DNA of 64,000 nt, from contig CP126194.1 in assembly GCA_030272155.1 (NCBI GenBank), positions 3,835,501 to 3,899,500 of the forward strand. The letters are read 5' to 3'. Each line of letters begins with the position of its first letter. Positions within the stretch are counted from its first letter, which is position 1. Positions 19,415 to 57,099 of the stretch are shown piece after piece. Below the pieces are notes generated by a model, which was given only the letters and a program-made list of their open reading frames with translations, searched no databases and was not told the DNA's origin. The position numbers and the translations under genes were made by a program. This stretch comes from Tetradesmus obliquus (Eukaryota > Chlorophyta > Chlorophyceae > Sphaeropleales > Scenedesmaceae).

Positions 19415-22040
19415 ATGGAGGCCCATGCAGATCAGCCGGTGTACCACCTGTATGACCCGAACGGCTGGGTCAACGACCCAAATGGGCCTCTGTATTACAA
19501 AGGACAGTACCACATGTGAGTGCTGGGAGGCGAGCTTATACAACGCTACACATGCAGCAGATCAGCACACCAGAATGCAGCTGCTGCAACAGCAGGCAAG
19601 CTTTGCATGCATGGCAACCAGAGCTGCAACTGCAGCAACGTTGTACTTACAGCTGCGCTAACTATGAATGCACGAAGGCATTGTGCATTGTCAGCGGGTG
19701 ATGGCCGGAATGCCATGGTTGGGTTGCAAGCAGCGCCCAACTCATACCTTGCAGCTGTGCTGTACCACAATCTGCTGCAGGTTCTTTCAGAACGTAACAG
19801 ACAGCACAAAATGGACATGGTGAGAGGGCGGTACCCTGCAGCAGCAGTCCTGTACAGTCTTGATCTGGCAGTTGTGTCTACAGCAGCTGCAGGCGTGCGC
19901 CTTCGTGCACTTTACGGTGAACACAGCACGTTTCTTCTGGGCAGTCAGCCACAAGCGCTGCAGCAGCACAATCACGGAGATTGCTGCAGCAGTAGGCTGG
20001 TCTGCTAAGCGGTGCATCATCGCAAACCCATGCATGTTGCTGCATCTGGCACCTGTGCTGGCTGTGCTCAGTAGCATGTGCATCACTTTGCTGTCCGATA
20101 TCTGCAACACTACATACACACTACTGCTTGTCGCCTTTTTGACATTGCTTGCCAGCTGCTGCGCTGTGTGCTGATCTTGTGGTCTGATCTTGTGTTCTGA
20201 TCGTGATTATTTGCTGCCGCTCCCACTCGCCTCCGCAGGGGCTTGAGCTGGGGCCATGCCACCAGCACAGACCTGCTGCACTGGAAGCAGCTGCCTCCTG
20301 CACTCACACCTGACCCGGGCTGGTTTGATGCTGACGGCTGCTTCAGCGGCTGCGCCACTGTGGACGCTGACGGCGTGCCTGCCATACTGTACACGGGGTG
20401 AGCTGGCCGGGCAGCAGCTGGGCTTGAAGCTCATGTACAGAAGCTTCTTGTACCTGTCCATGCATTCTTGTTGCTCTTGCTTGCTGCTGCTCTGCACCGG
20501 CTGTATCGACCTGACAATGGCGAATGCAACTGCCTGTTTCTTTTTCTGCTGCATGCGCAGTGTTGCCAAGAAGCCTGATGCAGGGGAGCGCGAGGGCATG
20601 CCGCTGACTGTGGCCAACATGTGCTACGAGCGCCAGCTGCTGGCACGCCCGGCAGACCCAGGTGGGTAGAGGCAGGGTTGCTTGCATGAATCAGCTTGAG
20701 GAGGCACAATTTAAGTTATATGTTGCTGTGCAGCTGCTGCCATGAAATGCACTGGCCAGTGCTTATAGCTCGGCGACAACATGCATGGTTAGGGCAGCTG
20801 CGCGTGCAGCGTCGTGTCGCAGCATAAATATGGTGCGGAAGACAAGTGTCTGTGCACACCCTTCACTCTGTTGTCACTGGGCATCTGCATTGTGTGTTTC
20901 TTGCGTGCTGCAGGCGACCCTAAGCTGCAGGCGTGGGTGAAGGTGCAGCAGCCCTTCCTGGCTGATGACGGCTCAGGGCTGCCGCTGCTGTGCTTCAGGT
21001 GCGCGGCTGGGGGCCTGCTTCGATGCAGTGGCTGGTGCATTGGGCATATGGCATTGCAGTGCTTGCGCTTGCGCAGCAGGGGTATGTCCAGCAGTCTCTA
21101 ATGCACGTGCTGCTGCTGCTGCTCGCCTGCAGGGACCCGTTCCTGCTAGAGAAGCCCAGCGCTGCCAACGGCTGGCGCTGGCGCGTGATGGTGGGCGCCA
21201 ACATAGACATGGAGGCGCTGGCGCTGCAGGCATCAGCAGCAGCTGCAGAGCCCACAGCAGCCACACCTGCAGCACCTGAATCAGGAACAGGAGACCATGC
21301 TGCTGCAGCTGCAGCTGGTGTATCAGCTGCGGGTGCTGCTGCAGATGATGGGTCAGCAAGTAGGGCCGAAGGCGTTGCTAGTAGTAGGGCTGAGGAGGAG
21401 CGGCAGCAGCTGCGGCGTGCGGCTGCTGCGCTGGCTGCTGGTGGCTGGATGGGTGGCGGGCGGGGCCTGCCTGGCGGGCTGACGCTGGGCACTGCCACGG
21501 TGTACCGCAGCAAGGGGCGGCAGCTGGAGGGAGGTGAGCAGATTGGAGCAGATGAGATGACGGCAACATGCAATGGGCCCGTCTTTTGGGGCGTTTGTGC
21601 TGCAGCAGAGCTGCATGCCAGGGTGGGAAGGCAAGGGGCGGCAGCTGGAGGGAGGTGAGTGGGGTTGAAGTGTTGGGCAGATGGAGGGGGGATGGGGTTG
21701 CTGTGTCTGGGTTTTTTGCTGCAGCGAAGGGTGGGAAGGCAAGGGCTGGCAGCTGCAGGGAGGCAGCGGATGCGTAGGCTGGAGATTGGTGTGTCGTGCA
21801 GCCACGGATGGGGTTTGACAATCTAATAATACATGTTGCATGTTTCTCGCCAGCGTCCTTACCTCCTTGTACCCTGTGTGGCTCAAGCGTTTGGCATTGC
21901 TGACTGCGCCACTGCCTTGTGATGAATCCCTGCATGTGCATGCAGAGTGGGAGTATGAGGGTCTGCTGTGTGTGGCCAAGCCAGGGGAGGGCGCAATATG
22001 GGAGTGCCCCATAATTGCGCCACTGCGCCTGCCAGACAAC

Positions 22041-22075
<35 letters not shown>

Positions 22076-22179
22076 TGAGGCGGGCGCTGCTGCCGCAGCT
22101 GCTGGTCAAGATGTTGCTTTGTCCTCGCCTGCTGTGCCTCCCAACACGCCCCTACAGCCAGCAGCCAGCAGCAGTACTG

Positions 22180-22213
<34 letters not shown>

Positions 22214-22327
22214 GCAGCTTGAGGTAGAGAGGGCTATGTCTGGCTGCCTAGGCCTGTGTGACAGCTGGCTGTCAGGCAGCAGAGATGGTGCTGCTGAGGC
22301 TCCACCATCTCCCAGTGGGCACAGCAT

Positions 22328-22383
<56 letters not shown>

Positions 22384-31300: not shown

Positions 31301-32131
31301 TTAAACATGTGTGCCTCTGCTGGCCTGCTGTACTGTAGGAGTGTGCCCAGCCAGGTGTCAGCCAGCCTCACCCTACTGCGGTGTAATGTCATCAAGCATG
31401 CTGCCTGCCTTGTATCTCTTGCACAATAAAGCATATCTCTGCTGCAGTGCTGGCCTGCCGCGCCGCAGGAGTGTGCCCAGACAGGTGTCGGCCAGCCACC
31501 TGGACCTCGCCCTCACTTTTGTGCAGCACACTGTGCTGCATGTGTGCTAACGACGTTATGTATGGCCTACTGCTGTGCTGCAGGAGCGTGCCCAGCCAGG
31601 TGTCGGCCAGCCATTGGACCTCACAGCGTCACTCTTGTGTAGCACACTGTGCTCGATGTGTGCTGTTACCTCTTTAAATGTGATGCAAGCATGTTGTTGA
31701 CAGTGAGATGTTGTGTTTACTGCTGCTGCCCTGCAGGAGTGTACCCAGCCAGGTGTCGGCCAGCCACCTGGACCTCTCCCTCACTTTTGTGTCGCGCACT
31801 GTGCTGCACGTGTGTTGACAATGTTATGTATGGCCTACTGCTGCGCTGCAGGAGTGTGCCCAGCCAGGTGTCGGCCAGCCACTTGGACCTCACCCTCACC
31901 GTGCGGCCCACACGAGGCATGCAGCGCTTCCAGCTGCTGCTGGGGCCGCTGAGGCAGCACGGCGAGCAGCAGCAGCAGCAGCAGCACCACCACCAGGTGC
32001 TGCCAGGCATCATGAGTATGGACCTGGGCGGCAGCAGCAGCATGGCTGGGGCACCCAGCGGAGCTGAAGATCAGGAGGATGAAGCAGGCAGTGGGGGACA
32101 AGCTGATGCTGCAGGGGCTCGTGCCTCATCC

Positions 32132-32170
<39 letters not shown>

Positions 32171-34867
32171 CCACTCAGCTTTGTCCCACTTGCAGGCCCT
32201 GCAGCAGCAGCTGCTGCAGACGTTTCTGCGCCAGCTGCTGCTGCGCATGCTGCCCCACCCTTCCCTGACAGCCTTGGCAGTGGACTTGCACGCATGCCTG
32301 CTGTGCTGTCAATGTTACCATCTGTTGCAGCCAGCAGCAGCAGCAGCAGCAGCACTGCAGCCACACCATCAGGAGCTCCACATGATGCAGCTGCTGCTGG
32401 CGATGCAGGCTCACAACTGAACTCATCCAGCAGCATCAACCCATTCGCTGCATTTGCGGCAACGCCTGCAGCTGCCGGCATCTTTGCAGCCAACCCAGCA
32501 GCAGCAGCAGCAGCAGCAGGCCCAGCCAGGCAGCTTTCAGAGGAGTGCGAGTCAGCTGCACTGGCAGCAGCAGCAGCAGCAGAGCAGGTGGCGCAGGAGC
32601 ACCACCAGGCTGCTGCCATCACATATGAGTTTGGCTCCTCATACCTGCAAGTACTAGTGGGCCCTCCTGGACCCTTACTGAAGCTGCTCAAGCAGCAGCA
32701 GGAGCAGCTGGCAGCAGCAGCAACAGGCTCACCATCTTCAGCAACAGCAGCAGCAGCAGCACAACATACGGCTGCTACAGCTGGTGCATTCAGCTCTGCC
32801 AACCCCGCCACGGCCCGTACAGGCACGCCAACTGCAGACGCGCTTGGATTTGAGCCGCCGCTGCTGCCGCCGGCACCGACTGGCGGCCTCGCTGACATCA
32901 TGGCTGAGGCTGCTGCTGCTGGCGTGCGGGTGCTATCATGTGAGGCAAGGGCTTTGGAGGCTGGCGAGGCGCTGCGGCTGCGGCTGCTGCTGGACTACAG
33001 CATACTGGAGCTGTTCCTGGGCACAGGGGAGGTGCTCACCACACGGGTGAGCCTTGAACACAGCTGTCTCAGAGACGTACATCTCATTCTCACAGCCTGG
33101 CAATCTCTCGTAAGAGATTAACAGGCAGTGATGTGAGAGTGAGATTGGGAGTGAGAGTGACAGTGAGAGTGAGAGTGAGAGCGATGTTGCTGTCCCCTGA
33201 GATATCATGGAGCTGTTCCTGGGCACAGGGGAGGTGCTCACCGCGCAGGGGAGGCGCGAGCTGGGGTTAAGGGTTAGAGTGTTTCCTGGTGGTTTTGCCT
33301 GAGAGTGGGGAAATGTGTGTGTACGTGATGATGGCAATGCAGAGCAGGTAGTGAAACTGATGGGCTTCTTCTGGTTTACATGACCTGCACCATTCTTGCA
33401 GACAGCTTTGCCTCAAGCTCTGCGCCAGCTGCTGATACCTTTTGTGCTGCACCCCCCGCAGGTGTACCGCGGCGCCCCCACAGCGCGCGCAGCAGAGATG
33501 TCAATGAAGAAGGCAGCAGCACACGCAGCCTCCGAAGCTCATGCGGCAGCAGCAGCAGCAGACAGCGACCTAGCCAGCCATGGCAGCCTGGCAAACCTGG
33601 GCCTTGTGGTGCAGCAGCAGCTGTCACCTTATCCGCATCAGCACCTGCTGCTGCGCAGCGGCAGCGGGCATCGGCTGCTGGGGTCAGCACACAGCAGCGG
33701 CTGCCTGAATGGGGTGGGGTCACCCCGCAGCAGCCTGCATGGTGTGGGGTCGCCTAGCAGTCTGCATGGTGTGTCGGGGTGGGCCTCACCACCTCTTGCG
33801 GGGAGCCCTAGACTCGCTGGTGCCGCCGCTGCTGCTGCTGCTGCTGTTGGGCGAGGTGAAGAGCTAGCAGAAGGATCGGCAACAGTAAGCAGCCCTGTCA
33901 GCCCAGCAGCAGCAACAGCTGGTGCGCCTGAGGGTCACAAACTGTCTCACAGCAACCTGCAGCTACAGCAGCAGCAGCAGCAGCAGACGCTGCGCCACGT
34001 CGCTGCCACAGCGCCTGGCACCCCACCACCCCTCAAGGCCGGCGTGGGGCCCCTGCCTGGTGCTGCTGCTGCTTCTGTGGGCTCCCCGAGGCTTGCTGCT
34101 CAGCTGCTGAGCCCAGGCACTGCTGCTTTCGGCAGCTACATCCACTACTTCTCACCTGGGCGCAGCCTGCATGCACATGTGGGTGGTGGCGCGAGGCACG
34201 CATCCTCGCTGCCGGTGCTGGCAGGCATAGCTGAGGCGCATGCAGACCAGCTGGGTGGTGGGGACAGCGCTGCTGCTGCTGCTGCTGCTACTGCTGGCAG
34301 TGCAGAGGGTGTCCGCATCAGCAGTGCAGCAGCAGGCTTGTTTGGACTTGAGAGCATGACTGCGGCTCCTGCAGCACCTGCCGCCGCCGCCGCAGCAGCA
34401 GCAGCAGCAGCAGCAGCAGCACCGAGGCAGGGCGCGGTTGCCGGCGGCGGCAGCAGCGGCATGGCTGGCAGCAGCCATCGCATCAGCGTGAGTTCCGAGG
34501 ACTCTGAGTCAGCGCTAGATGCCTTCCCAGGTTTCAGCCCGCACAAGCCACCTGCCCACCCTGGATTCTTCATGCCTGGTGGCCCCAGTGCTGCTGCAGC
34601 AGCGGAGCGGCATGCAGCGGACAGCAGCGCAGGTGAAGCGGGCAAGGCCAGCAGCAGCAGCAGGAGTGGCAGTGCTGGTGAGAAGCTGTCGAGCTGGTTC
34701 ACACGCAAGCTGAGTTTGAAGGGCAGCAAGTCAGGGAAGGCAGGCAAGGGTAGTAAGGCCGGCAAGGGAGACGGCGGCAGCAGCAGTAGTAGCAGCAGCA
34801 TGGGTGGCACCAGCCAGGTTGTGGTGCCTGCTACGTTTGGTGTGCCTATGCCTCCCCAGCTAGGGCC

Positions 34868-34907
<40 letters not shown>

Positions 34908-34963
34908 CCAGGGGCCGCTGCTGGTGACAGAGATGAGCTGCTGAAAGACCAGCAAGGCCCGGC

Positions 34964-34994
<31 letters not shown>

Positions 34995-35586: not shown

Positions 35587-35617
<31 letters not shown>

Positions 35618-35732
35618 TGTTGGGGAGGCAGGTGCTGCTGGTGCAGGCGCGAGCATGAGTGAGAAGCATGGTGAAGTGAATGGCGCAGCAAGTGAGGGTC
35701 AAGGTCGGGCAGCAGAAGCACCTGCCGGCCGA

Positions 35733-35763: not shown

Positions 35764-35894
35764 GTGGCAAGGCTGTGTCGAGTGGGTATGTGGCTGGTGC
35801 TATGCGTGAGCTGTCGCTGGTGGCGCTGGGTGGTGGTGGGGTGGTGCTGCAGCTGGAGGCGTACGAGATGGCCAGCATGTGGGACAGCGAGTGA
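19415..35894 (+). CDS. GH32 beta-fructosidase (invertase family) with giant low-complexity C-terminus, 11 exons, about 1841 aa
   Basis: Exons 19415-19515, 19781-19819, 20239-20397, 20561-20661, 20914-20998, 21133-21533, 21946-22441, 22778-22886, 30608-31014, 31852-33046 and 33462-35894; the phases add up to one frame. The three GH32 signatures are present: WVNDPNG (nucleophile Asp21), FRDPF across exons 5/6, and WECP (acid/base Glu, codon 22002-22004). Family blocks also include [23 protein letters not shown] and the beta-sandwich end [13 protein letters not shown] followed by TTRVYRG. The enzyme should cleave fructose from sucrose or fructans. No signal peptide is seen at this start, so it is either cytosolic or missing a 5' exon. 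Usual GH32 enzymes are 500-700 aa; here Ala/Gln/Ser runs are inserted in several exons and about 800 residues, including an Asp run near 35360, follow the catalytic fold. Exon 2 is 39 nt. Intron 8 is 7.7 kb and full of mobile DNA. Confidence 0.85.
21629..21764 (+). repeat. Two donor-side exon echoes after GH32 exon 6
   Basis: The last 21 bases of exon 6 plus its GTGAG donor (to 21539) recur at 21629-21660 almost unchanged, and again more degenerate at 21738-21764, where the GT is lost. Spacing is about 120 and 107 bases. Both copies lie in the intron downstream of the donor used. Confidence 0.85.
22948..23019 (-). tRNA. tRNA-Trp (anticodon CCA), copy 2, antisense in GH32 intron
   Basis: Exact reverse complement of the tRNA at 8716-8787 over all 72 bases. 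The upstream 23-24 bases, including the CCTGG-TTCG-CCAGG hairpin, are also the same, and a few 3' bases (ATG/ATT then T-rich) resemble copy 1. Whether it is transcribed inside a Pol II gene is unknown. Confidence 0.85.
23117..24278 (+). repeat. Segment X, copy 1 (1.16 kb, unassigned repeat)
   Basis: About 1162 bases repeated at 28635-29805 with only about four substitutions and one short T-rich indel. It holds short open frames (23140-23322, 23252-23488, 23433-23687, 23947-24267) with no motif that I recognise. It ends in GTGTAACAAACACAAAC: a TGTAA poly(A)-type signal followed by an A-rich tail. That suggests the 3' end of a retroposed transcript or non-autonomous retroelement, but the family is unknown. 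Confidence 0.7.
24279..25745 (+). other. Unassigned intronic stretch Y
   Basis: About 1.47 kb between segment X and LINE C. Open frames up to 131 codons (24724-25110) carry no known motif. It contains a perfect 21-base hairpin (25182-25202). Like segment X it ends in GTGTAACAAA (near 25701), followed by A/T-rich bases and a telomere-like motif. This may be a second degenerate retroposed sequence. Confidence 0.45.
25182..25202. repeat. Perfect 10-bp inverted repeat with 1-base centre
   Basis: GTGTCAAGGG, one A, then CCCTTGACAC. Could form a hairpin or a dyad protein site; it lies in non-coding intronic DNA. Confidence 0.8.
25746..28058 (+). CDS. LINE C reverse transcriptase fragment and C-terminal region
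   Basis: About 770 codons open from the FADDTQVYL motif to the stop at 28056-28058, with the [17 protein letters not shown] zinc-knuckle-like cluster intact. Motifs upstream of FADD (block 4 and earlier, and the endonuclease) are absent because of 5' truncation, so no active enzyme is expected. Equivalent to residues 117-886 of copy B. Confidence 0.85.
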   Translation, partial: QFADDTQVYLRSPAQVAQFLLHMQVMAAASGQQLNLHKSKLLLLGATARQQHATLSRQHAAGVLPLSPVLQANVLGVCVGSDSPVDWGQKLASVDAALARLSHVPQLSVFGRGMGSAAYGVSTLLYAAEFSDLPPDVDRQHLVAAVGKLVDRGLAPASSVRRFTGVAARFLAGRPAEGGFGALPWLEHIRARHAWWGAQFATAPPDTELPWVRIGRELLRSKHKWWGPLSLFDSFEDTQTPMEPSQAFPQQSLPPPPLRRMIAGLQALGKVCDVKALAPAAPAPALPPPHPQQLSDVQQLRAQLQAVQDAPVLQPGAWCSLAPVFANPFLQAMVGFVPGGLQMHPVPSVRGPHACSGGKCRPRIRTVADLCRAWHVIQHAARQQLPHPLLPYGSNFSNADNESADLTDLVNLLPMPWHRAALAVVRHPAADRPWPPAAVPDPPCVPSAAEQHVEAMLVARLGWRNHRGKTVSVAQLSVREATSLQLGPLRAERQERRTRFVSVAIGAGAPPAALTRGLQCVAAAQGALWKMRWDNAYKETYWRLIMDGLPTSQRMHQQHDTCMCGAACPGLVHHFWECPVAVAVIDSLLSALPATWCTRAAGRPPLAMRHVWLMQRPPGPQRLHQGVWGVICLAALNAMDVGRRQANTLHIPPPAPAAPRPSAPPPQWQVPITDVFQPAALTAAQQQHNQLVEQRRQQQLLQQQQQRQQLLAQVLQEAKQQAVLRFWELLADFVAMEAAPAHWRVAVPGDHPFLRSDPAQLRIVLAPRSG
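28610..28614 (+). terminator. TGTAA poly(A)-type signal at LINE 3' end
   Basis: TGTAA about 14 bases before the end of the element. It is conserved in copies B and D, as expected for a Pol II transcript using the algal poly(A) signal, although no poly(A) tail is present at the insertion. Confidence 0.55.
28635..29805 (+). repeat. Segment X, copy 2
   Basis: Second copy of the 1.16-kb segment at 23117-24278, in the same orientation and starting within about 7 bases of the end of LINE C. It differs from copy 1 at about four positions and by extra bases in a T-rich run near 29417-29435. It breaks off at CACAAAC, where LINE fragment D begins. Confidence 0.85.
29804..30063 (+). mobile_element. LINE 3'-end fragment D (same family as B and C)
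   Basis: About 260 bases matching the last part of LINE C (28367-28628) essentially exactly. It is followed by AAAAAA and a second GACCTCTCTCTC, that is, a partial repeat of the element's own end (30069-30081). A severely 5'-truncated insertion or a product of the local duplication. Confidence 0.88.
30064..30607 (+). other. Remaining 3' part of GH32 intron 8
   Basis: About 540 bases with no recognised gene or repeat apart from the short CT-rich repeat at its left end. Leads to the acceptor of exon 9. Confidence 0.5.
31339..31851 (+). repeat. Four acceptor-side exon echoes before GH32 exon 10
   Basis: The acceptor AG plus the first 35-55 bases of exon 10 (encoding [13 protein letters not shown]) recur at 31339, 31469, 31584 and 31737, ahead of the real exon start at 31852. 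Spacing is 130, 115, 153 and 115 bases. Every copy keeps the AG and the GAG(T/C)GTGCCC start; read onward, copies 2-4 run into stop codons. They look like tandem decoy acceptors. Confidence 0.9.
33047..33461 (+). repeat. GH32 intron 10 with (GTGAGA)n tract, exon echo and telomere-like motif
   Basis: Contains a hexamer-like tract of GTGAGA/GTGACA/GTGAGT units (33136-33182), a copy of the last 40 bases of exon 10 (33206-33248, donor GT lost), and GGGGTTAAGGGTTAGAG at 33264-33280, which resembles plant/algal telomere repeats. All are seen directly; any function is unknown. Confidence 0.75.
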
Positions 35895-35955
35895 CTCAGA
35901 AGGCTGGGCCTGCAGCAATCGATTTTGGAGTGAGTATAGGAAAGCAAGTATGTCT

Positions 35956-36107
35956 CTGGTTGGAGGCGTGTGGGATGGCCAGCTTGTGGACAGCGAGTGA
36001 GTGGCTAGGTGCTTGCTGTGCTATGGTTGTGGCATGTGGAAGCAGTTGTGAGTGGGTCCTGTGGCTGGAAGCATATGAAATAGCCAGCATGTGGGACAGT
36101 GAGTGAG
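35956..36107 (+). repeat. Two echoes of the GH32 stop-codon region
   Basis: About 45 bases around the stop (35853-35898, encoding [13 protein letters not shown] then TGA) recur at 35956-36000 and 36061-36107, about 104 bases apart. Both copies keep the TGA in a GACAG(C/T)GAGTGA context. Confidence 0.88.
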
Positions 36108-37574: not shown

Positions 37575-38203
37575 AAAGGCTGCAGCAGCAAACGAGGGAT
37601 ATCACAGAACAACTGCCAACAGGTCGCAGGATAGCCAAAACTCTGGATGACATGCAGCTGCTGGCTACTGAAGAGGTCTGGACTCGGTGATCACTCAGAA
37701 GCATGCATGCTGCTGGAGCTCAGCTGATGACTAGTTAGCTGGCAAACATCTAGCACCATAGCTGGCCAACTTGCTATCAGCCAGCCTAGCCAACCACCTG
37801 AGCACCAAACAGGCAATCAAACCGAAGATACTGCGGTGCCGCAGCAGCTGGCTACGCACTAGCCCCTCAGCAGCCGCAGCTCCCCCAGGCAGAGCAGGAC
37901 CCGCAGCAGCAAACAGACATCACAGCACAACCGCCAAAAGGTCGCATGTAGCAAAGCTCAGCAGCTGGCTACTGAAGAGGTGTAATCTCAGTGATCACAG
38001 GAGCAGCATGCATGCTGCTGGAGCTCAGCCGATGACTAGCTAGGGGCAAAACAGTTAGCACCACAGCTGGCAGCTGCTATACCAGCTAGGCTAATTACAC
38101 AAACACCTGAGCCCTTAACAGGCATTCAAACCGAAGGTACTGGAGCGCCGCAGTAGCTGGCTACAAACTAGCCCCTCAGCAGCCGCAGCTCCCCCAGGCA
38201 GAA
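37575..38203. repeat. 309-bp tandem duplication at the 3' end of the expansin gene
   Basis: Unit 1 is 37575-37893 and unit 2 about 37897-38203. They share many blocks at a constant offset of 309: CTGGCTACTGAAGAGGT, GATGACTAG, and the 35 bases around the expansin stop (37859-37893 and 38168-38203). Unit 2 contains the real stop codon; unit 1 is a diverged copy further downstream on the gene's own strand. Confidence 0.85.
38095..38099 (-). terminator. Likely poly(A) signal of the expansin gene
   Basis: TGTAA on the minus strand, about 70 bases after the stop codon. Confidence 0.45.
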
Positions 38204-38427
38204 GGCTGCATGCAGCACCTTGGTGTTCTGCAGGTCAATGCGTGTCAGCTGGTGCGGCAGCGCTCCCTCGTAGTCGCACTTGAAGGCGCTGAGAGGGATC
38301 TTGTAGGAGAACCAGCCGTCACCCAGGGATTGCGTCACGAACTGGCCGGTGCGCACGTCTGAGTTGCAGTACTTTTTGCTCTCGTAGTTCTGCAGGAAGA
38401 CCTTGAGGTCGACAGGCTGCAGCAGGG

Positions 38428-38523
<96 letters not shown>

Positions 38524-38527
38524 CGGG

Positions 38528-38571
<44 letters not shown>

Positions 38572-38952
38572 CGGTTCATAACAATGTACATTGAAGCGTT
38601 TGCTGCAGGCAGCTGCAGGCAGACAGCACTGCGATGCACAAACCAGGTGCAAGCTTTGATGATGCTGCGCCTGCTGCTGCTCTCTCTGCTGCTCCTGTAT
38701 CTGTGGCTGCTGCTGCTGCTGCTGCTGCTGCTGCGCTCACCTCATTCTTTGGTGTGGCAGTTTTGTCGGGGCTCTTGTCATTTGAGTTTGACCTGAGCGT
38801 GAGCTGGATGGCGTTCACCCCTGCAAAGGGCTGGTAGCCTGGCTGGTTGCCTTCCTTCACGTGGAAAGACAGCCCGCCATTCTCTGTGAGCTCAACACAT
38901 GTGGCAGCAGTCTTTTCGAGTGTGCGGCCTGGCCGCGGCAGCAGCAGGAGGG

Positions 38953-40946: not shown

Positions 40947-41786
40947 GCAAGCCGTGTATGAGACTCTGATCGTGACTAGCAGATGATAAGAAGCATTCAG
41001 AGTTGGGCACTGCCTTTCAGGCGGTCGAAACAGGGCGAGGTAACACAGCAGGCCGAGCAGGTAAGGCGTGTGCTCTGTACAAGTTGTAGCTGCCGAGCCT
41101 TCAGCAGCTAAAGTAATGAACCTTGGACTTTAAGAACCGTCGTACCACGAACCAGGTCAATGAGCCGGCCAGATTCGTGGAGTGACAAAGAACCCTGGCA
41201 GGTGTGCAGTGCGCTGGTGCGGGAGCAAAACAGCAGATCTCCTGACGGCGCTGCTGACAGGGTATCGATAACCTGCTGTGCGTACGTCTCTATGTAAGGT
41301 TGGCTGTGTCTGCTTTGTGTCTGCTTTCGAACGGTGTCACTAGTAAATGTTTGCTTGAGGCACTCATGACCGAACGCATCGCAGCACAACGTGTCAAACA
41401 GCAACGTTTACAGACAACCACTCAGGTTAAGCATTCGCTGCTACAAGCTTAGGCACCCGCCATCCGTGCTGACCGGTGAGTGTCGCCGGTGTTGCTGCTG
41501 CTGCTGCTTCTTGTGCTACTGCTGCTGCTGCTGCTGCACTGCAGCCACATCCATCCCACCCCAACAAAACCGCAATTCAGGACCGCTTTTCGCTCCTATG
41601 AAGGGTACTGTACCTTACACACCAGAGCATGTTGTGCACAGGTGGTGCTGACGTCCAAGGTCAGGGCAGCCGCACAGGCATCACACAGCAGCAGCAGCAG
41701 GCTGGCTGAGTCACACACACATCAGTAGCAGCAGCAGCAACAGCCAGATGCATTCAAGTCAAACACCCCATTTAAGATTGCTTCAG

Positions 41787-43000
41787 ATGGCTGCCCTGCT
41801 CTCGCTCCTGCTAGTAGTTACAGTAACAGCACCAGCAGCAGCACAGTCCCAGCAGGCTGGCGTCCCCCTGACATCTAAGGGCCGCTTCCAGCTTGAATCA
41901 GCAGCCAAACCCCAAACCACACAGGCTCAAGCCCTGCAGCGCTGCCTAGCCGCTGCCCGCCCTTCTGGAGCTGGCAGCCTATCTATTACCTTCCAGCAAG
42001 ATGCAAAGAACTACAAGCTGCTGCAGACGCGCAACGCGCAGCTGCGGGGCTCTCGCATCATGCCGCTGGCCTTTGTGCAGCCAGCCAGTTCAGCAGATGT
42101 GTCAGCAGCGGTGCGCTGCAGCGTGGAGGCTGGGCTGCGCTTTGTGGCCAGGAATGGTGAGCAGGGCTGCTGCTGTGTGCTGTGTGCGGGGTGTGACCCA
42201 AGTTGCATGTGGGACACATTGCGTGGCAGTAGGGTGCTATGAAGGTTGGTGGAGGCTGGGCTGCGCTTTGTGGCCAGGAACGGTGAGCAGGGCAGCGGTG
42301 TGCGCTGTGTGCGGGGTGTAATCAAAACATGGTGCCGGGAGGCAGAGCAGTTAGGGTCGTGCGCGCTGCAGGTTGACAAGGCCTGTCAGCACAGCAACTG
42401 GCTGCCTCATGCCAGCTGGCTGAGAATGATGTAAAACGCAGCACTGCATGGTCTTCGTTGCATGCACCTTGCGCTGCGCTGCTCTGACGGACTATGCGCT
42501 GCTCTGACGAAATATGTGCTGCCTGGTGTGCCGTTGTTCTGCTGCCTGGTGTCTGCTCAGGTAGCCACAACTATGAGGCCAACAGCCTGGTAGGAGGTGG
42601 CGTGGTGATTGACCTGATCAACCTGCTTTGCTCTGCGGTGCACTGACACATACATTGCTGCCTCCTTTGTTGCCTGCTGTGCTGCCTGTTTGTTTGTGCT
42701 CAGGTGGCCACAACTACGAGGCGAACAGCCTGGTTGGGGGCGGCGTGGTGATCGACATTATCAACCTGCATTGCTTTGTGGTGCACTGACGAAATAGTTG
42801 CTGCTTCCTGTGCTGCCTGTGTGTTATGTGCTCAGGCGGCCACAACTACGAAGCAAACAGCCTGGTAGGAGGTGGCGTGGTGATCGACCTCATCAACCTT
42901 CAGGAGCTCAAGATAGACTCCAAGGCCAACAGCATGACAGTGGGCGCAGGCTACAGGCTGGTAAGACTAACTCCTACGGTTGACCTGAACTGCATAGCTC

Positions 43001-43043
<43 letters not shown>

Positions 43044-43145
43044 ACTGCCCTGATAATGGCCTCTGCATCTCCAACGAAGCTTTGCCGTATATGCCTTCCC
43101 ACGCGCCTGTGCTGCTCGCTGCTCCATGAATGTGTGCACAGCTGA

Positions 43146-43188
<43 letters not shown>

Positions 43189-43514
43189 AGGGCTCGCTGT
43201 ACTCCAAGCTCACCCCCCTGGGCTACGTACTGCCAGGCAGCACCTGTGTAGGGGTTGGCATCAGCGGGCTCACCCTAGGGGGTGGCATTGGCCATGCCAC
43301 GCGGGCCCTGGGTGTGCTGGCTGACAGTGTGCTGGCTGCTACTGTGGTGCTGGCAAATGGCACTGTGGTGGAAGCTGACAGCAAAAGTCATCCGGATCTG
43401 TTCTGGGTGAGTGTGGATGAGTGTGTGGTCGGAGCCGATTGTGCTTGCATTGAAGGTGTGCCAGGATGCGTGAGGTGCTGCTCGCTGCAAGGGGAGCAGG
43501 AGGGCTGCTGCAGC

Positions 43515-43545
<31 letters not shown>

Positions 43546-46208
43546 TGACAGTAGTGATGTGTGGGGTGGGCATCAGCCGGCTAACCCTGGGGGGTGGCAT
43601 CGGGCATGCAACACGCGCACTCGGTGTGCTGGCCGCCAGCGTGCTGGCTGCACACAACAATGGTGCTGGCAAATGGCACTGTGGTGGAAGCTGACAGCAA
43701 GAGCAATGCAGACCTGTTCTGGGTGAGGGGATGATTTGAGTTTGGAATCAAAGGTGGTTGGAACAAGACACTGGGTTGTGTGGTGTTCTGGCGCAGAGAG
43801 CAGCGGCGGGGTGCAGAAAATCGCCAATGCGCAGCAGCAGTGGTGCCAGCAGCACTGCATGACCAGATTTGTGCTGGAAAGCGGTTGCAGCACATGTGCT
43901 GCACATCCTGTATTGCTGCTCTAGTACCACTGCTGAATAATGCTGCTGTTGTGCTGTGTGTGCCTGCTGCTGCTGCTGCTGCTGCTGCTGATGCTGATGC
44001 TGATGCTGCTGCTGCTGATGCTGATGCTGCTGATGCTGCTGCTGCTGATGCTGCTGATGCTGCCGCTGCTGCTGCTAGGCTATCCGTGGTGGTGGTGGGC
44101 TGTATGGCATTGTCACGTCCTGGAAGTTCAAACTCTTCAAGGCACCTAAACAGGTGGGCGGGCTGCACTGCACTTGCATTGCAGGCGGCTGACTGTGTTG
44201 TAGAGCATGATGTGGGGCACCTGCCGGAAAGCACTCTAGCAACCAACATGGCACACATACCTGCACATCACTTCTGCAGCCAACAGCACGCAGCTCATGT
44301 ATTCAGTTTATTAGTGCATTCAGTCCAGCTGTCGCAGATTCATGTTCTGCAAATTGCTCGTGTCAACGCCATATGTCTACACCAACTCTGCTGCATTGCA
44401 GGTGTCTGGGGTGCTCTACTGCATGCATTGCATCAGCTCCCCGTGCATCACCCATTACTCTCCCTGCAGAACACCCATGCCGACACCAAACGCATGTGCA
44501 CTCCTCTGCACTGCAGGTGTCTGTGGTGCACTACCGCTTCCGTGAAAACTGCACGCAAACCAAGTGCTCTACCGTGCTGTGCGCCTCTTAACTCCTGCAA
44601 AGCACTCATGTCGCCACCAACACTCATGTGCACCGCCTGCTGGGTTACAGGTGTCAGTGGTGCGCTACCGCTTCCGTGAGAACTGCACTGAGGCCAAGTA
44701 CGCTGCAGTGCTGGGCGCCTTCAACGCCTGGCAGCCCTGGAGGCTGCCCAAGGAGGTGGCCCTGGCTGAGGTGCAGTGCGGCTACGACAGCCTGCAGGTG
44801 CAGGTGAGGCCGGCTCATCATTCTGTTACGATAGCGCACACCAGCCATTTGCTCAGTGAGCCCTGCTCCGTCACAGCTGGCTGAGGTGCAGTGCGGCTAC
44901 GACAGCCTGCAGGTGCAGGTGAGGCCGGCAGCAGCCACTAGCACTCCTTGCACTATCTGGAGGATGCAAGGATGCTGTTTGCAGACGATGCCGACAGATA
45001 CAAGCATGCCTTCTCTTGAGCATGCAACATACATCACATGCAGGCGCAGGTGCGGGCACGGGAGCCATAAGCATGACTTTCAGTGCTTGAACTCTCTGGC
45101 CCTCGTCTGAGATCAGCTCCCTGGTGCCCAACTCTGCACTGCCACGTGTGCAGCACTGTCGCTGCTTGCGACGTGGCGGTCATCCGGCTCGTGTCCAGCA
45201 GGGTCTTTTGGCTGCACGCTGGTGTAACTACTTCTGAACCAAGTCACCTGCGTCAGTATGTTCTGCTCGCTCGATGTGCGTGTTTGTGCAGTTCTGGTAC
45301 TGGGGCCCCATGTCGGAGGCCAACAAGACAATGGCGTCCTCCCCTGTGTTCAAGCTGCCCAACAGCTACCCCTTCATACACAAGGAGTACTCATGGGCTG
45401 ATTTTGTGGCGCACCGCATGACAAACCTGCACGACGAGACGGTGAGAGACTGTGTCAAGAAGCTTGCTGGTGTTGCTGCACCCACCACATGCTGCTGCTA
45501 ATGCTGCCACGTCCAGCTGTGCAGCTGTTTGTGGGTGATATGTTCAAGTTGTAGCGGATGCTAATCGCAGGATATCAAGCCTCGGCAGCATGCAGAAGCA
45601 CAGCACAGCAGCAGCAGTCAGCCGCATCCCTGCAACAGCTTAACCTCTAAGGTTTGCGGCTGCTGCCGCCTGAAACCGCACAACTCCTGAAACACCTGTT
45701 GTCTCTGTGTCCGCAGGACTGGGGCAACGGCAACCTGCTGCTGTCAGACATGCTGCAGCAGCTGTACAAGGAGCGCAGCAGCTTCGTGGCTGCCTCCCTG
45801 GTGCCCCTGGTCCCTCTAAACAGCAGCGCAGTCAAAACCATTGCCAAATACATGGTGCAGGCGCAGAAGCATGCATTCATTCAGAGCCGCGCATGGGGCG
45901 GCCAGGTGACAGCTGTTGCAGATGATTTCAATGCATTTCCGTGGCGGCAGGCGCCGTTTGAGTGCCAGGTGTATAGCAATAGCGGAGATGCCCGGAAGGA
46001 CCGCAGCTGGGTTGATGGATTGTTGGCTGCTGTGCATCCTCTGATCGGGAAAGCGGAGTATTTGAACTATTTTCACTGCGTAAATGACCCCTGGCAGGCG
46101 TACTTCGGGCCACATGCTGCGCGGCTGCAGGCGATCAAGAAGGCGTATGATCCGCAGGGCAGGATTGGCGGGCTGTACTGCCAGCAGGATAATATCATTG
46201 ACGAGTAG
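41787..46208 (+). CDS. Secreted berberine-bridge-enzyme-like FAD oxidase, 7 exons, about 526 aa
   Basis: Exons 41787-42156, 42836-42960, 43191-43406, 44079-44153, 44651-44803, 45292-45441 and 45717-46208; the phases sum to one frame. A second in-frame ATG at 41748 is possible, but 41787 starts directly at a signal peptide (MAALLSLLLVVTVTAPAAAQ). The FAD-binding PCMH domain contains VARNGGHNYEANS, whose His is the usual site of covalent FAD attachment, then GLTLGGGIGHATRALG and AIRGGGGLYGIVTSWKF. The C-terminus YLNYFHCVNDPWQAYFG plus YDPQGRIGG is the BBE domain. The family oxidises sugars, alcohols or amines and releases hydrogen peroxide; the substrate cannot be told. The length is normal for the family. 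The join between exons 5 and 6 is the least certain. Many introns carry exon echoes. Confidence 0.85.
42249..42835 (+). repeat. Exon echoes in intron 1 of the BBE-like gene
   Basis: Directly after exon 1, its last 33 bases plus donor recur at 42249-42290 (offset 125). Before exon 2, its acceptor plus the first 65 bases (HNYEANSLVGGGVVIDL) occur at 42561 and 42704 ahead of the real start at 42836 (spacing 143 and 132), each preceded by TGCTCAG. The two upstream copies have an acceptor but no donor and lead into stops. Confidence 0.92.
43148..43190 (+). repeat. (CTG)n tract forming the acceptor of BBE-like exon 3
   Basis: About 14 CTG units running straight into CTGCAG, the 3' splice site. A second (CTG)n run lies at 43003-43042 in the same intron. 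Confidence 0.95.
43566..43728 (+). repeat. Echo of the 3' two-thirds of BBE-like exon 3
   Basis: Repeats 43256-43412 downstream of the exon's donor, including GISxLTLGGGIGHATRALGV, the Asn-Gly-Thr stretch and the GTGAG donor. An internal length change shifts the frame, so it is probably not an alternative exon. Confidence 0.88.
44401..44925 (+). repeat. Echoes on both sides of BBE-like exon 5
   Basis: Acceptor-side copies of SVVRYRFRENC begin at 44401 (weak) and 44518 before the real exon start 44651. After the exon, its last 42 bases plus the donor (44762-44810) recur at 44878-44925, offset 116. Confidence 0.9.
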
Positions 46209-48893: not shown

Positions 48894-50773
48894 TCACCCT
48901 CCTGTTGCTGCCTCACAACGCTCATCAGGCTGCCTCCAGCCATATGAAAGGTCCAGCTGCTGCAGCACACCATGCTTGCCCCTGCCATTGCCATTGCCAT
49001 TCTCAGCTGCCTTAGCCCCTCCCGCTGCCTCCACTGCATCGCCAGCAGCTACATCTGATGCTGCTGCTGCATCAGCCGCGCGCGCTGCATCTACCTCCCG
49101 CTCCTCAACCTCCGAGGCACTGCCTTCGTCAGTCTCTGACTCAGATGCTGACGTGTTATAACCGTTATAACTGTCATCGCCGCTGCCAGCAGCCAGAAGC
49201 TGCCCTGCACCTGATGAGATGCTTGCAGCAACAGGCACCCGGGCGCGCTTCGCCACCCTGCCGCTGCTGCCCCTAGCGCTGCTGCCAACCTGGCCGTTGC
49301 TGCCTGCTCGCGCGTCCCCACCGTTGCCGTTGCTGCTGCCGTTGCCATTGCTGCCAGCTGCGGCTCCATTCTGCTGCTGCGCCTCCTGTTGCCCGTCTGT
49401 CTGCCCAATCGCTGCTGCTGAGGAAGGCAGTCGCCTTGCATCTTTCCTCGCCTCCAGAAAGTCAACGCTGTTTGCTGACCCTAGCATCTCACCGAACAGC
49501 TCCTCCGCTGCTGCTGCACTGCCGTATGACTGCACCTTATCGCGGATGCAGCTACTGTCCATCTCTTGCAGCGCAGCATCAACCATCTGCCGCCGCACCG
49601 CTGCACGCGCCTCTTCATCGAGCGCATCGATATTAAAGACGCTTGCAAGATCCTGGCTGCTGAGGCCAGCCGCTGCTGCTGTCCCTTCGCCAAACGACGC
49701 GCCAAACGCTGCGGCAATCGCGCCAGCAGCTGCATTAGGTGCCGCAGCATCAAGCGCAGCATCTGCTGCTGCTGATGTGGATGCATCTTTGACACCCTGC
49801 GCTGCAGCCTCGTCTTCAGGGTATGGTGTGTGGCTGATGCTGAACTCGAGTGTCTGCAGGTCTGCCCACAGCACCGCCATGTGCTTGCTGCCGCTGTACC
49901 AGCGCACATGTAGCTCATGGGGTGGTGTGGCATCATCAACGAACACGCCGCCCGTGAACGCGGGGTGGCGGTTGCGGAAGCGGCACAGCTCGAGTAGGGC
50001 CTGCACACACGCATACATCACATGCACATGCACAGCACAGCCCTTAGCAGTGGTTGAAAACTGAGGCTGGATGGCGCTTGAGGAAGCGGCACAGCTTGAG
50101 CAGCGCCTGCAGGGCGCAGCAGGCAGCAGGAAATGGTTTAAATGCAACACTAGGCAGAACATGCTCACACAGTTGACCCCAGAGGATCATACATAGCCTG
50201 TGCTGCCGCACAAAAGCTTGCATGTATGCGCAGCGCCGACACTGCAAGCCACGCACCCCCATAACTCAACCTAGATGGCAGACATAGCTGCTACCAAAAT
50301 GCACCACAAACCAGCCAGCAATCCCACCTGCACCACCGGCCGCTGCTTATGCAAGCACATACATTGATTATATGCACAGCTTCAAAAGCCCAAAACGCTC
50401 CCACCTGCACCACTGGCCGCTGCAGGCAGCAGGCCGCCTCGTCCAAGCTGAAGTGGTGCCTGTTGATGTCACGGATGCTGCCGCGCTTCATCAGCTCAAT
50501 GTCATCCACACCAGCCAGCAGGCCCTGGCAGCAGCAGCAGCAGCAGCAGCAGCGGTAGCAGCAGCAACAGTAGTCGCAGCAGCAAACAGCAGCATGCAAG
50601 AATGCCATAGCCAGGCAAATGCAGCTGTGAAGCACAACTCGGAGACAGGTAAACGCTGGCAGAATTGCGCTGTATGCAGGAGCAGCAGCAGGTGAGCGCA
50701 GCTGCTGCGGGTTAGTCCGCCTCACCACATAGTAGACCATGGGCACGCCTGGCGTGAAGAACTGGATGGCCCT

Positions 50774-50828
<55 letters not shown>

Positions 50829-53800: not shown

Positions 53801-54906
53801 AACTTCTGCAACACCAGTCGGAAGACGCAGCAGCAGCAGCAGCAGCAGCCAGGCTGGCGCCCCACCTGCATGAAGCAGCTGGTCCCCGCCTTCTTTGTGA
53901 CGTAGCCAAAGGCGTCCAGCCGGATCAGCCGTGCTCTTCCTTTCTCACACAGCGACCGCAGGCTGGCCTCAGTGAAGGCCCAGCCCTCCTCACTGAATGG
54001 GTTGATGTCCACCTGCAGCAGCAGATACAACTATATAGTTGACTGTCACAAACAGGAGTTGCTGCTATCAGGCTGGTCTTGTGAAGGAAAGGTGACCTCT
54101 ATGAAGGTCCAGCCCTCCTCACTGGAAAGATTTGATGTCCACCTATGGCAACAAGTGCGACATAAATAAACAGCAGTTGCAGTGTGAGAGAGTTGGCTGC
54201 TTCGTGCATCTGCTGCCAGGTTTGGGGTCTTGAGTCCGGCAGTAGCGGGAGTACTTGTGTGCAAGCGCGGCCTGACAGCAGTGCATGCGGCAGAGCCACC
54301 ACCAGGACGCATAAGCACAAGGCAAGTTTCACATGTGTACTTCAGGGTGTGCTGTGCTGTGCTGCCACCCACCTGCTGATCGCTGAAGGTGTTCCAGAGC
54401 GGCATGCAGCTGCCATCAGCCAGCGTCACAGACAGCACGGGAGGTGCGGGCTTGCGCGTGCGCACCTTCTCCAGCTCATCTGCTGAGGGGCCGCCTGGAC
54501 AGCAGCAGCAGTAGCAAAGGCAGCAACAATAAGCAGCAGCATTTGCAGTTGACGGGCATCGCCAATGGCTCACTCTACAAGGTGACATTGGCACGTAGGA
54601 CACATCATTGATACGCGTTGCAGCCGCTTATGCAGATACAGCCACTGCACACCAGTGACACTCGCGCTCCTGGCAACTGCATTGGCTGTGTAAGGGCCGA
54701 GCAGCTCCTGTGACGCTAACTGAGTGGGCATATAATATAATGTTATGACATGTAACGCTAGCACCCCTCACCCTCTGGCCAGATGTCCCTCCACTTGACA
54801 AACATGCTGGCGTAGCGCGAGGCCTCGCCATGCTGCAGGTAGTCCTGGAACTGCGGGGAGCCTGGGCTGATGTGGTTCACCATGTACTCCAGGCACAGCT
54901 GCGTGG

Positions 54907-54968
<62 letters not shown>

Positions 54969-57099
54969 GTACTTGCGCATGAGCTCAAGCATTGTTTGAG
55001 CAGCAATTACCTATGCAATATTGGAGCACATGGTGCCGGTGTACACGAATTGCATGCGGCTCCACGGCTGCATAAGATACACCCACACGGCTACATTGTA
55101 GCTGGCGATCCCAGCCGCATCAGCGCATAAGCGGTGCAGCGCAATGCGCCACAAGCAGCTGCCTGCTGCAGGTCTTGCACAACACGCCCAGCATGTAAAT
55201 GACCCAGCACACCTGATAGTCATGTCCTAGTGAGTGCACCTGGTCCCAGTTGCCTGCAGCACATGCAGCAGCAGCAGCAGCAGCAGCAGCAGTGTTTGGC
55301 GTGACGAGAGGCTCATTGCTGCAGCCACTGCTGCATTATGGAACAAGCGTTCCAGGATGTGCAGGTGTTGCTGCTTTTCACACTGCTGCTCGTCACCCCC
55401 ATATGGCCTCACTAAGCTGTGAGTCCACCTCCTTGCACATGATGACCATCTTGGGACAGGCTCAATGGCGCCTTTGAAGCTGGGGCTACAGCAGTTCTCA
55501 TGGTATAACTGAAGCTACAAGGGTTTTGATTGTCAGATCGTGCATAACGTGCTTGCTGGCCTCACTCATTGCTGGGTTCACCTCCTGGTAGGTGATGATC
55601 CCATAACAGGCTAATCCTGTACTACACCGCTGCAGGCGTGACAGTTCTGCGTGTTGTGCTGTATCAAAATGTGCTTGCTGGCCTCACCCATCTGCGGGTC
55701 CACCTCTTGGTAGGTGACTGGCGCAAAGCCGCGGTCTCCTGTGGAGGGGTAGATGGGCAGCAGGTGCAGGCTGCCAAAAGCACCTGCAGCAGCAGCCGCA
55801 GCAGCCACAGCAGCAGCAGCAAGTTGAAACTAACCACAGGCAAACAGGCACTGGTACTGGACCCTAGGGGTGGGCATACGCTGGGGTGTGTGCATGCTGG
55901 CAACGCCAGATTGTACGTTTGCCAGTAATGCACCACAACATTGTTCGTACTGCACTCTGCTCGGCTGGCACCTGCATCCAAAACCTGCCCCAAAACGCAG
56001 ATACTTCTGCAGCCACGTTGTGTGTGGGACTGGCAGCAGCATGCTGATAGCTAGCGGCTGCGAGAGACTGCAGCTGGCAGCGGTACTCTGACTGATAGAT
56101 CACACGGCTAGCAGCCGCAGCAGTACCTTGCAGTTCATCCTGCTGCAGGAAGGCAGTCAGGTCACTCAGGTTGTCACCAATGGCATCTGCATACGTGCTC
56201 AGCTGCACCTGGTTGCTCACACCACGCCTGCAGCAGCAGTGGCAGCCAGCAGCATTTGGAACAGGCAGCAGCGTCACTGTGTCCGTGGCCTGTTGCCGCA
56301 TGCTGTGAGTATGCCTGTGCTAGCTGCTTGCGCGCTGCTGTTGTTGGTGCGTGCATGTATAAAGGAGCTGTTTACACGGTAGTTGCAAGGCTGCACACCT
56401 TCAAGCAATGCCGGACCAGGGGAGCCCGCATGTGTATGGCCAGCCATGCAGCGTGCAGTGCATGCGGGCTTCAGCACTTGTATGGCACAGTATTACATGG
56501 CATGGTTCGATAAGCTTCATTTGGCTGCTTGTCCCCTGCTGCTGCTCTGGCCTAGCCTGCTGCTGCCTGTCTGGCCTAGCCTGGATGCAGGGTGGTGGCA
56601 TCCGCCCCCACCCCCCTGGGCTGCCTAGGGCATGGTTATGCAGACACAGCGAAGCTCCCCCTGTGCCTGCACGTATATGTGTAATAACAAGACGAGTATC
56701 ATGCGTGACAATCAGAGCCTTGCATTAAATCTCCTCCCACCTTGAGGTGTGATGCTGTGGTAGCCCCTCTGCGTCCCATCCACAGATGAACTTCAAATTC
56801 TCATCGACACGTTGCTCCTTCAGGCACTTTGAGCACTCCCGCTCGTCCTTTGGGTAGGGCTTTTTGCCATTGGTTGTGCTGCTACTGCTGTCGTGGCCAT
56901 TGGCATTGCTGCTGCTGCCATTGCTACTGCTGCTGTTGCTGCTGCTGCAACGCACAGCGCGCACAGAGTCCCTAAAGCGGCTCGATGTAACGCATGGTGT
57001 GCTAAGAGGCCTGAAGGCTGGGTTCCTGGCGTGTGTGGAGCAGCTCGCAGGGGAGCTGCCAAGCATGGACAAGTGCATCATCTGATGCGACACAAGCAT
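48894..57099 (-). CDS. GH13_18 sucrose-phosphorylase-like enzyme, 16 exons, about 942 aa
   Basis: Exons 57099-56741, 56227-56127, 55783-55688, 55253-55213, 54898-54772, 54494-54373, 54012-53863, 53558-53469, 53101-53067, 52790-52662, 51879-51861, 51523-51397, 51176-51017, 50771-50726, 50524-50405 and 50000-48894; all phases agree. Family blocks: [66 protein letters not shown] (nucleophile Asp), LLCEVHEDF (acid/base Glu), [14 protein letters not shown] (stabilising Asp), [28 protein letters not shown] and FRNRHPAF. These mark subfamily 18, which splits sucrose or glucosyl-glycerate with phosphate. All three catalytic residues are present. An N-terminal Ser/Arg-rich leader (first 55 residues) suggests a plastid transit peptide. 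A Ser/Asn/Ala-rich tail of roughly 300 residues follows the fold. The exact donor specificity is unknown. Confidence 0.87.
50054..50347 (-). repeat. Exon 15 and exon 16 echoes in one GH13 intron
   Basis: Between exon 15 (ends 50405) and exon 16 (starts 50000): a donor-side copy of RPVVQ plus GTGGG at 50347-50328, and an acceptor-side copy of [14 protein letters not shown] (as [15 protein letters not shown]) behind a CTGCAG acceptor at about 50103-50060. Confidence 0.88.
50775..50826. repeat. (CAG)n tract, about 17 units, at GH13 exon 14 acceptor
   Basis: CAG on the plus strand, (CTG)n in the sense of the gene, continuous with the CTGCAG acceptor of a 46-nt exon. Confidence 0.96.
53376..53448. 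repeat. 24-25 bp minisatellite, 3 units
   Basis: Three tandem units beginning CTCTTGTGA and ending AAGACACG, at 53376, 53401 and 53425, in the GH13 intron after exon 8. Confidence 0.9.
54093..54143 (-). repeat. Acceptor-side echo of GH13 exon 7
   Basis: Copy of the first 45 bases of exon 7 ([13 protein letters not shown], start 54012), preceded by ATAG, 126 bases upstream of the real acceptor. The copy has a one-base length change. Confidence 0.85.
54906..54968. repeat. (CAG/CAA)n tract before GH13 exon 5 acceptor
   Basis: CAG with three CAA/ACAG interruptions on the plus strand; sense CTG, directly upstream of the acceptor of the MVNHIS exon. Confidence 0.93.
55540..55610 (-). repeat. Donor-side echo of GH13 exon 3
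   Basis: The end of exon 3 plus donor and 20 intron bases (55668-55730) recur at 55546-55606 (offset 123), further downstream in the gene. The donor is GTGAG in both. Confidence 0.85.

Follow-up and report, generated by a model that had tools for sequence, protein, structure and literature searches.

The window analysed here, a whole stretch of 64,000 nucleotides of Tetradesmus obliquus DNA (C4:3835501-3899500; the assembly has 17 contigs and totals 104.7 Mb), holds four predicted genes, referred to as the GH32 span, an expansin-like gene, BBE and GH13_18, in which short sequences around exon ends recur as local tandem copies, termed echoes below. A first-pass annotation of this DNA had proposed that exon ends recur as degenerate copies in four genes, and these repeats are real and far above chance. 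An ungapped scan for local direct repeats (spacing 40-2000 bases, score at least 18, simple repeats masked) returned 38 segments in the window and 0 in each of two order-2 Markov shuffles. Duplication sets at spacings of 60-600 bases, with spacing measured between adjacent copies, form 15 clusters, one intergenic (8962) and 14 within predicted genes. As read from the sequence, all 14 genic clusters touch a coding edge, namely 12 splice edges and two stop codons (35894 and 38168). The earlier reading of the cases as splice-site neighbourhoods needs the correction that 35894 and 38168 are stop-codon edges facing 3' flanks. The window's repeats away from edges (23884, 29402 and 28369/29804) have shorter or much longer spacings, and three short-period minisatellites (42475, 48158 and 53375) likewise lie away from edges.

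The gene names given at first sight hold for two of the four genes. BBE is identified by Pfam, with the BBE domain and one FAD_binding_4 exon over the cut-off and two further FAD_binding_4 exons below it, and GH13_18 by true exons (53866-54012 and 55688-55781) that match sucrose phosphorylases among Protein Data Bank (PDB) sequences. The GH32 identity is weak (Glyco_hydro_32C, E 0.005, below the Pfam cut-off), and the gene with stop codon 38168, putatively an expansin, gave no Pfam match in the pieces submitted to the search. The features are:

21510..21763, + strand: GH32 span, exon end with donor 21533; further copies at 21631-21659 and 21728-21763, spacings 121 and 108
31318..31899, + strand: GH32 span, acceptor and exon start (exon from 31852); five copies including the true one, spacings 115-153
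31318, 31448, 31570 and 31723, + strand: the four upstream intronic acceptor and exon-start copies for exon 31852
33006..33253, + strand: GH32 span, exon end with donor 33046; one copy at 33208-33253, spacing 202, with GG in place of the donor's GT
35843..36106, + strand: GH32 span, C-terminal coding end with stop codon 35894; downstream copies at 35961-36000 and 36055-36106, no splice site
37655..38202, - strand: expansin-like gene, tandem duplication of about 305 bases with the last 34 or so coding bases, stop codon 38168 and 3' sequence; copy at 37655-37893
42123..42286, + strand: BBE, exon end with donor at about 42155 (gene finder: 42190); copy at 42249-42286, spacing 126
42554..42902, + strand: BBE, acceptor and start of exon 42836-42960; upstream intronic copies at 42554-42647 and 42703-42790, spacings 143 and 132
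43251..43727, + strand: BBE, about 160 bases of exon 43191-43406 with its donor; copy at 43563-43727, frameshifted and likewise carrying a donor, spacing 312-316
44385..44720, + strand: BBE, acceptor and start of exon 44651-44803; upstream copies at 44385-44422 and 44500-44586, spacings 115 and 134
44762..44929, + strand: BBE, exon end and 11 intron bases at donor 44803; copy at 44877-44929, 53/53 identical, spacing 115
49960..50111, - strand: GH13_18, acceptor and start of exon 48894-50000; copy at 50066-50111, spacing 106
50322..50423, - strand: GH13_18, exon end with donor 50405; copy at 50322-50346, spacing 77
53964..54144, - strand: GH13_18, acceptor and start of exon 53866-54012; copy at 54093-54144, spacing 129
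55543..55717, - strand: GH13_18, exon end with donor 55688; copy at 55543-55595, spacing 122

BBE illustrates how homology, without recourse to the gene finder, tells true exons from copies. The FAD_binding_4 profile runs through three exons in succession: positions 1-32 end at the exon end near 42155 (E 0.0064, below the cut-off), positions 33-74 fall in exon 42836-42960 (E 0.00035, also below) and positions 77-138 fall in exon 43191-43406, over the cut-off. Since these segments follow one another across the true exons, there is no room in the protein for the copies at 42249, 42560, 42703 and 43563.

With 200 kb of contig C1 added to the window, the total sample is 264 kb, to which the counts below refer unless other loci are named. 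The GC content of the C1 sequence is 56.7%; along the window, taken 2 kb at a time, it mostly lies at 52-65%. Neither sequence contains an N. Exons are the predictions of a purpose-written gene finder, self-trained on the 264 kb, which called 433 exons (median 102 bases) in 29 intron-rich genes, with the splice consensus CAG|GTGAG at donors and TGCAG|G at acceptors. Predicted introns have a median of 250 and a mean of 341 bases and number about 14 per gene; their length histogram is uneven, an observation left unused since false exons could produce it. For T. obliquus, the available text of PMC5966456 gives 57% GC, 7.8 introns per gene and a mean intron of 462 bases, with 230-302 bases for the four others tabulated. 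Base composition and gene structure are in keeping with a green alga of the Tetradesmus/Scenedesmus type. Because the predicted introns per gene are nearly twice that of PMC5966456, the gene finder probably over-calls exons or merges genes. These exon predictions, some of them false and part of them backed by homology, are the main weakness of the analysis.

The sample contains 109 clusters, 15 in the window and 94 in C1. Adjacent copies lie 93-163 bases apart in 82 of them, in agreement with the 105-155 bases first suggested from the window. None falls at 164-200 and 15 fall at 201-256, about twice the unit, with 7 clusters below and 5 above these ranges. Few segments (5 and 14) have a period as short as 15-60 bases. 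Two C1 loci, L010 (C1:1020033-1021569) and L014 (C1:1066345-1068349), are dense multi-copy arrays with adjacent spacings of about 107-183, identities up to 99% and predicted exon edges within their units; they are candidates for very recent events. Echoes stand at one end of 108 of the 404 predicted introns, copies called coding included. Introns with a non-coding echo are longer (n=56, median 452) than the remainder (n=348, median 238), which is in part expected, as longer introns offer more room for echoes. Homology-anchored edges with echoes in C1 include exons of COX15, a Clp protease and a mitochondrial carrier. Seven further loci around alpha-amylase-family exons (contigs C2, C9, C10, C12 and C15; 22.4 kb; two overlapping) were obtained by family match, without the gene finder. 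Local repeats occur in five of the seven, mostly at the common spacings and once at 169; an echo overlaps the end of the matched exon in three (L001, L002 and L004), and none does so in L003, L005, L006 and L007.

The preference for exon edges was measured in two ways. The first compared 30-base windows with sequence 60-260 bases away (at least 23 matches, coding-called copies included). Intronward echoes were found for the first exon bases at 68/293 acceptors and for the last exon bases at 64/309 donors. They became scarcer with depth into the exon, at 10/210 and 11/206 for 60 bases, then 3/169 and 6/169 for 80. Windows lying 10-40 bases inside the intron, likewise searched intronward, gave 13/237 and 14/289. 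Searched the opposite way, intron windows 100-140 bases out have echoes in 10-15% of cases, being themselves the copies. Stop-codon ends echoed in 4/26 cases, and the control with unrelated genes returned 0/2578. The second test used 40-base windows and counted non-coding copies alone. Acceptor edges echoed upstream in 34/281 cases and downstream in 7/281, donor edges downstream in 28/296 and upstream in 6/296, exon interiors in 0/107 and 3/107, and intron windows in 10/283, 6/283, 10/287 and 14/287; the control was 0/2021. Edges that echo solely in predicted coding sequence are omitted from these counts (acceptor, 30 upstream and 18 downstream; donor, 42 downstream and 27 upstream; stop, 2 upstream). 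Stop-codon ends echoed downstream in 5/25 cases and upstream in 0/25, a small sample: two of these five cases come from the window itself, one of them (38168) with an unusually long unit of about 305 bases, and a C1 case (35826) is weak (30/40).

Local duplications therefore favour exon edges, as had been claimed, with intronward echoes at 21-23% of edges against 1-4% at 80 or more bases into the exon and 3-6% in introns. The contrary outcome, with edges no likelier to echo than interiors, was looked for in the 264 kb and not found. The proposed placement rule, with exon-start copies upstream of the acceptor and exon-end copies downstream of the donor, also holds, but it loses its force as a special rule, because any duplication that crosses an edge must leave its copies there if the protein is to survive. 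As stop-codon ends give echoes too, the results show that the relevant edge is the coding edge rather than the splice site as such.

What the copies contain informs on their template. Among copies not called coding, AG is kept in 39 of 49 at acceptor edges and GT in 26 of 35 at donor edges, which upholds the remark that most retain their splice dinucleotide; it is lost in the other 10/49 and 9/35. With coding-called copies included, none of 91 donor and 94 acceptor copies runs on into the neighbouring exon (at least 65% of 15-20 bases), while 39 and 43 respectively (82/185) match the flank of the intron they adjoin at the source edge. Young pairs remain alike for 2-13 bases into the intron. 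The copies thus derive from unspliced genomic sequence, and a spliced RNA or cDNA template, which would cross exon-exon junctions, was rejected. The exon-derived part has a median of 48 bases (10-90% range 29-97, 41 pairs) and as a rule covers much less than the exon, apart from a few short exons that were copied in full.

A present coding function of these copies was rejected. Codon positions were compared in 51 ungapped comparisons and 41 gapped pairs, each with one non-coding copy. The 41 gapped pairs contain 41 indels, of which 33 shift the frame, and the private third-position changes of the intronic copies number 87 synonymous to 14 non-synonymous, against 85% synonymous expected without selection. 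On both grounds the copies appear to drift unselected. When two intronic copies are aligned with gaps, identity is 0.85 in windows of exon origin, which were chosen for their similarity, and 0.81 in the intron flanks. In 18 full-unit tandem pairs, some from one array, exon-like and intron-like parts diverge alike (122/1886 and 107/1278 mismatches), so ordinary tandem duplication of units this long does take place. Among matched non-coding copies (window and L008-L027), mismatches are about four times as frequent at CpG sites (0.242 of 298) as elsewhere (0.063 of 2517), which suggests CpG hypermutability. The copies are also local: the sequences of 31318..31899 and 42554..42902, the 62-base spacer of the 44803 donor pair and C1:1068560-1069060 each match only their own locus genome-wide, in a search that passes over simple repeats and the most frequent words and covered 4 of the 109 clusters. 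A paralogue still present in the genome was discarded as the source in the C1:1068560 case.

The best-supported account, in which we place about even confidence, is recurrent local tandem duplication of units of roughly 95-165 bases that is tolerated, and remains visible, at coding edges. The genome would undergo such duplication frequently. A duplication inside coding sequence would break the protein and be lost, whereas a unit spanning an acceptor, a donor or a stop codon would leave one copy as exon and the extra copy in the intron or 3' flank, so that exon-start copies would come to lie upstream of acceptors and exon-end copies downstream of donors. The extra copies would then drift unselected; with the exon copy held by the protein, the exon-derived part would stay recognizable longest, and repeated rounds might build arrays and lengthen introns. 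Break-and-fill-in or a similar repair process may be the mechanism, as suggested by the available text on small tandem duplications (PMC8355091). Within this account, the size limits, the placement, the presence at stop codons, the unspliced template and the drift of the copies are observed directly, and the mean intron of 462 bases against 230-302 in the species tabulated with T. obliquus (PMC5966456, available text) fits a process that lengthens introns.

Several results weigh against this account as it stands. In our simulations, duplications with the sizes seen in the data arose at random, those that a gene could survive were kept, and non-coding copies decayed neutrally; simple neutral duplication plus selection, our first guess, failed. 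Wholly non-coding pairs made up 63-70% of the simulated set, but 11 of the 67 observed clusters with at least one non-coding copy (the 42 of 109 with both copies called coding being excluded). In a gapped scan, which gave 188 hits against 27 under an order-3 Markov null, 4 of 97 clusters were non-coding throughout, with fewer than 10 predicted coding bases in every copy (3/74 at the strictest score). The near-edge intron/exon echo ratio was 0.59-0.63 in simulation and 0.23-0.24, background included, in the data. The observed edge preference exceeds that of these neutral simulations. Start-codon ends, the least reliable of the predicted edges, echoed in 0/24 cases in both directions of the second test. 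The ratio of third-position to first-plus-second-position mismatches was 1.4-1.7 in simulation and about 3.2 ungapped or 2.6 gapped in the data, and the private changes of intronic copies are rich in third positions (72/65/108). This excess was considered as proof of past or present coding copies, a reading weakened by the 87 to 14 count and the frameshifts.

The same difficulty appears along the units. The 78 of 109 clusters used here have a match that meets a predicted splice edge and is no longer than 0.9 of the spacing. Their identity is 0.85-0.91 in the 20 exon bases next to the edge, about 0.5 once 5-10 bases into the intron, and 0.34-0.46 in the 15 bases beyond (control 0.25-0.30). These edges were picked nearest the match end, which exaggerates the step, and the 30-base edge test shows it without that choice. 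Under the same filter, with short exon parts or spacers also dropped, 27 of 75 pairs have spacers that can be aligned clearly (z>4), more often among the most similar pairs (6/10, 10/20, 5/17 and 6/28 from the most to the least similar class). Yet spacer similarity is uncorrelated in rank with exon identity (0.08, p 0.48), whereas a correlation would be expected if whole units aged together. Similarity thus ends at the coding edge more sharply than selection and the modelled neutral decay explain: either the copied stretch is often limited to the exon, or both copies were once coding, or the annotation misleads. False exon calls do inflate the coding share to some degree, as the 42 clusters with both copies called coding illustrate.

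A sharp coding limit would mean either that a diverged homologue supplied the piece or that only exon-like DNA is copied. Copying limited by the coding edge, in which the last 30-100 coding bases, up to splice sites and stop codons, would be carried in steps of about 120 bases to adjacent non-coding DNA without the adjoining intron, reaching about a quarter of introns and acting as a main engine of intron growth, is a possibility that we entertain only tentatively. Exchange between diverged homologous chromosomes, where a staggered junction would join the haplotypes some 120 bases back, would leave coding parts alike and introns or 3' flanks different from birth. It would account for the sharp stop of similarity at splice sites and at the majority of the observed stop codons, for the third-position excess, for spacers that align poorly and for the small number of pairs that are intronic throughout. 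Yet the extra synonymous divergence needed, by rough estimate a few per cent of third positions, is too small for unalignable introns, and the private third-position changes of intronic copies look unselected, which leaves this exchange unlikely. The mutational process linked to splicing that had been suggested for the window, by reverse splicing or cDNA-templated repair (or, as a further variant, repair templated by pre-mRNA) placing exon ends into introns, could explain the strong peak at splice edges and copies that end a few bases into the intron. It fares poorly, however, with echoes of stop codons in 3' flanks that have no splice site (5/25 of the 40-base and 4/26 of the 30-base windows), with splice-site bases being copied, and with the 0/185 copies that continue into a neighbouring exon, a test that does not bear on a pre-mRNA template; we consider it quite unlikely.

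Selection might instead keep the copies as functional decoys, or as the poison or alternative splice sites suggested earlier. The retention of AG and GT agrees with this, and the copy at 44877-44918 is called as a 42-base exon, but the frameshifting indels, the lost dinucleotides and the unselected third-position changes make such a function very unlikely. Intron birth, through tandem duplication of an AGGT-bearing exon segment (the Rogers model) or through introner-like elements, shares with our data a unit the size of a short intron and exon-derived sequence within introns. Its defining geometry, a predicted donor aligned with the predicted acceptor of the other copy, occurs in 0 of 109 clusters, while like edges align with like in 36, and all four sequences searched are local. 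Rogers-type gain on predicted edges and a dispersed introner family were both rejected, and intron birth in general seems far-fetched. An artefact, produced by the gene finder or by low-complexity sequence, would be in keeping with the clusters called coding in both copies, with multi-copy "exon" copies that carry 23 private non-synonymous first- and second-position changes against 31 synonymous changes in all, and with the excess of exons called in 29 genes, where some exons are wrong and genes may be merged. The effect nonetheless appears at edges anchored by homology (COX15, Clp protease and mitochondrial carrier; FAD_binding_4; GH13_18) and in three of the seven alpha-amylase exons taken without the gene finder, with simple repeats masked and 0/2578 in the control, so an artefact has slim prospects.

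Other features of the window are recorded here in their own right. An intergenic tandem duplication of about 515 bases (8793-9832), mostly 98-99% identical and far longer than the common 93-163-base unit, directly follows a tRNA-Trp gene (8716-8787). The predicted GH32 gene span contains a second tRNA-Trp gene (22948-23019, - strand) and a reverse-transcriptase-like open reading frame (ORF) at 25737-28058 (RVT_1, E 0.0018, below the cut-off), which is flanked by a segment of about 1 kb in two copies (23243-24300 and 28761-29800, judged by matching ORFs) and by a 247-base exact repeat (28369/29804). The expansin-like gene holds a GGCA tetranucleotide run of 36.8 copies (38426-38572), and CAG/CTG/GCA runs are common throughout the window.

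Altogether, the results point to frequent, size-limited local duplication as a contributor to intron growth, and speak against splicing as the origin of the copies. Intron lengthening and competing splice sites are usually studied via transposons or point mutation. About a quarter of the predicted introns here hold copies of their own exon edges within a narrow size range, which makes local duplication directly measurable. If the sample is typical, the 109 clusters in 264 kb would scale to about 43,000 over the 104.7 Mb, cryptic splice sites would exist by the thousand and the process could be a source of the lineage's long introns; gene prediction in such genomes should be expected to call false exons.

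Introners and introner-like elements are short sequences in algal introns; unlike them, the present copies are not dispersed, as judged from the four sequences searched. Tandem exon duplication places whole exons side by side, often spliced as alternatives. Its likeness to our case, according to the available text of PMC9013439 and PMC12343006, lies in local copies of exon sequence in introns beside the source exon. Here, in contrast, the copies usually comprise 30-100 exon bases at one edge, degenerate and frameshifted, a complete exon with both splice sites is not the usual unit (exon part of median 48 bases in 41 pairs), and stop-codon ends take part. In the potato RdRp case, the duplicated stretch carries the parental intron/exon structure and 3' splice site (PMC4974935, available text); no new intron was seen to be created in our sample, where the defining donor-to-acceptor alignment of the Rogers model is absent from all 109 clusters. 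We recognized no description of the exon-edge pattern in the literature as judged by titles and abstract openings, which is weak evidence. A further likeness is to small tandem duplications from break repair, through Pol alpha-primase fill-in of 3' overhangs, which PMC8355091 (available text) describes as the most frequent class of insertions below 100 bp in the human genome. The present repeats are likewise direct, side by side and of definite unit, with 82 of 109 clusters at 93-163 bases and 15 at about twice that. On repetition of the whole unit the data are mixed, with 18 full-unit pairs but clearly alignable spacers in only 27 of 75 edge pairs. They differ from the human duplications in their narrow range of mostly 93-163-base units and in being tied to coding edges.

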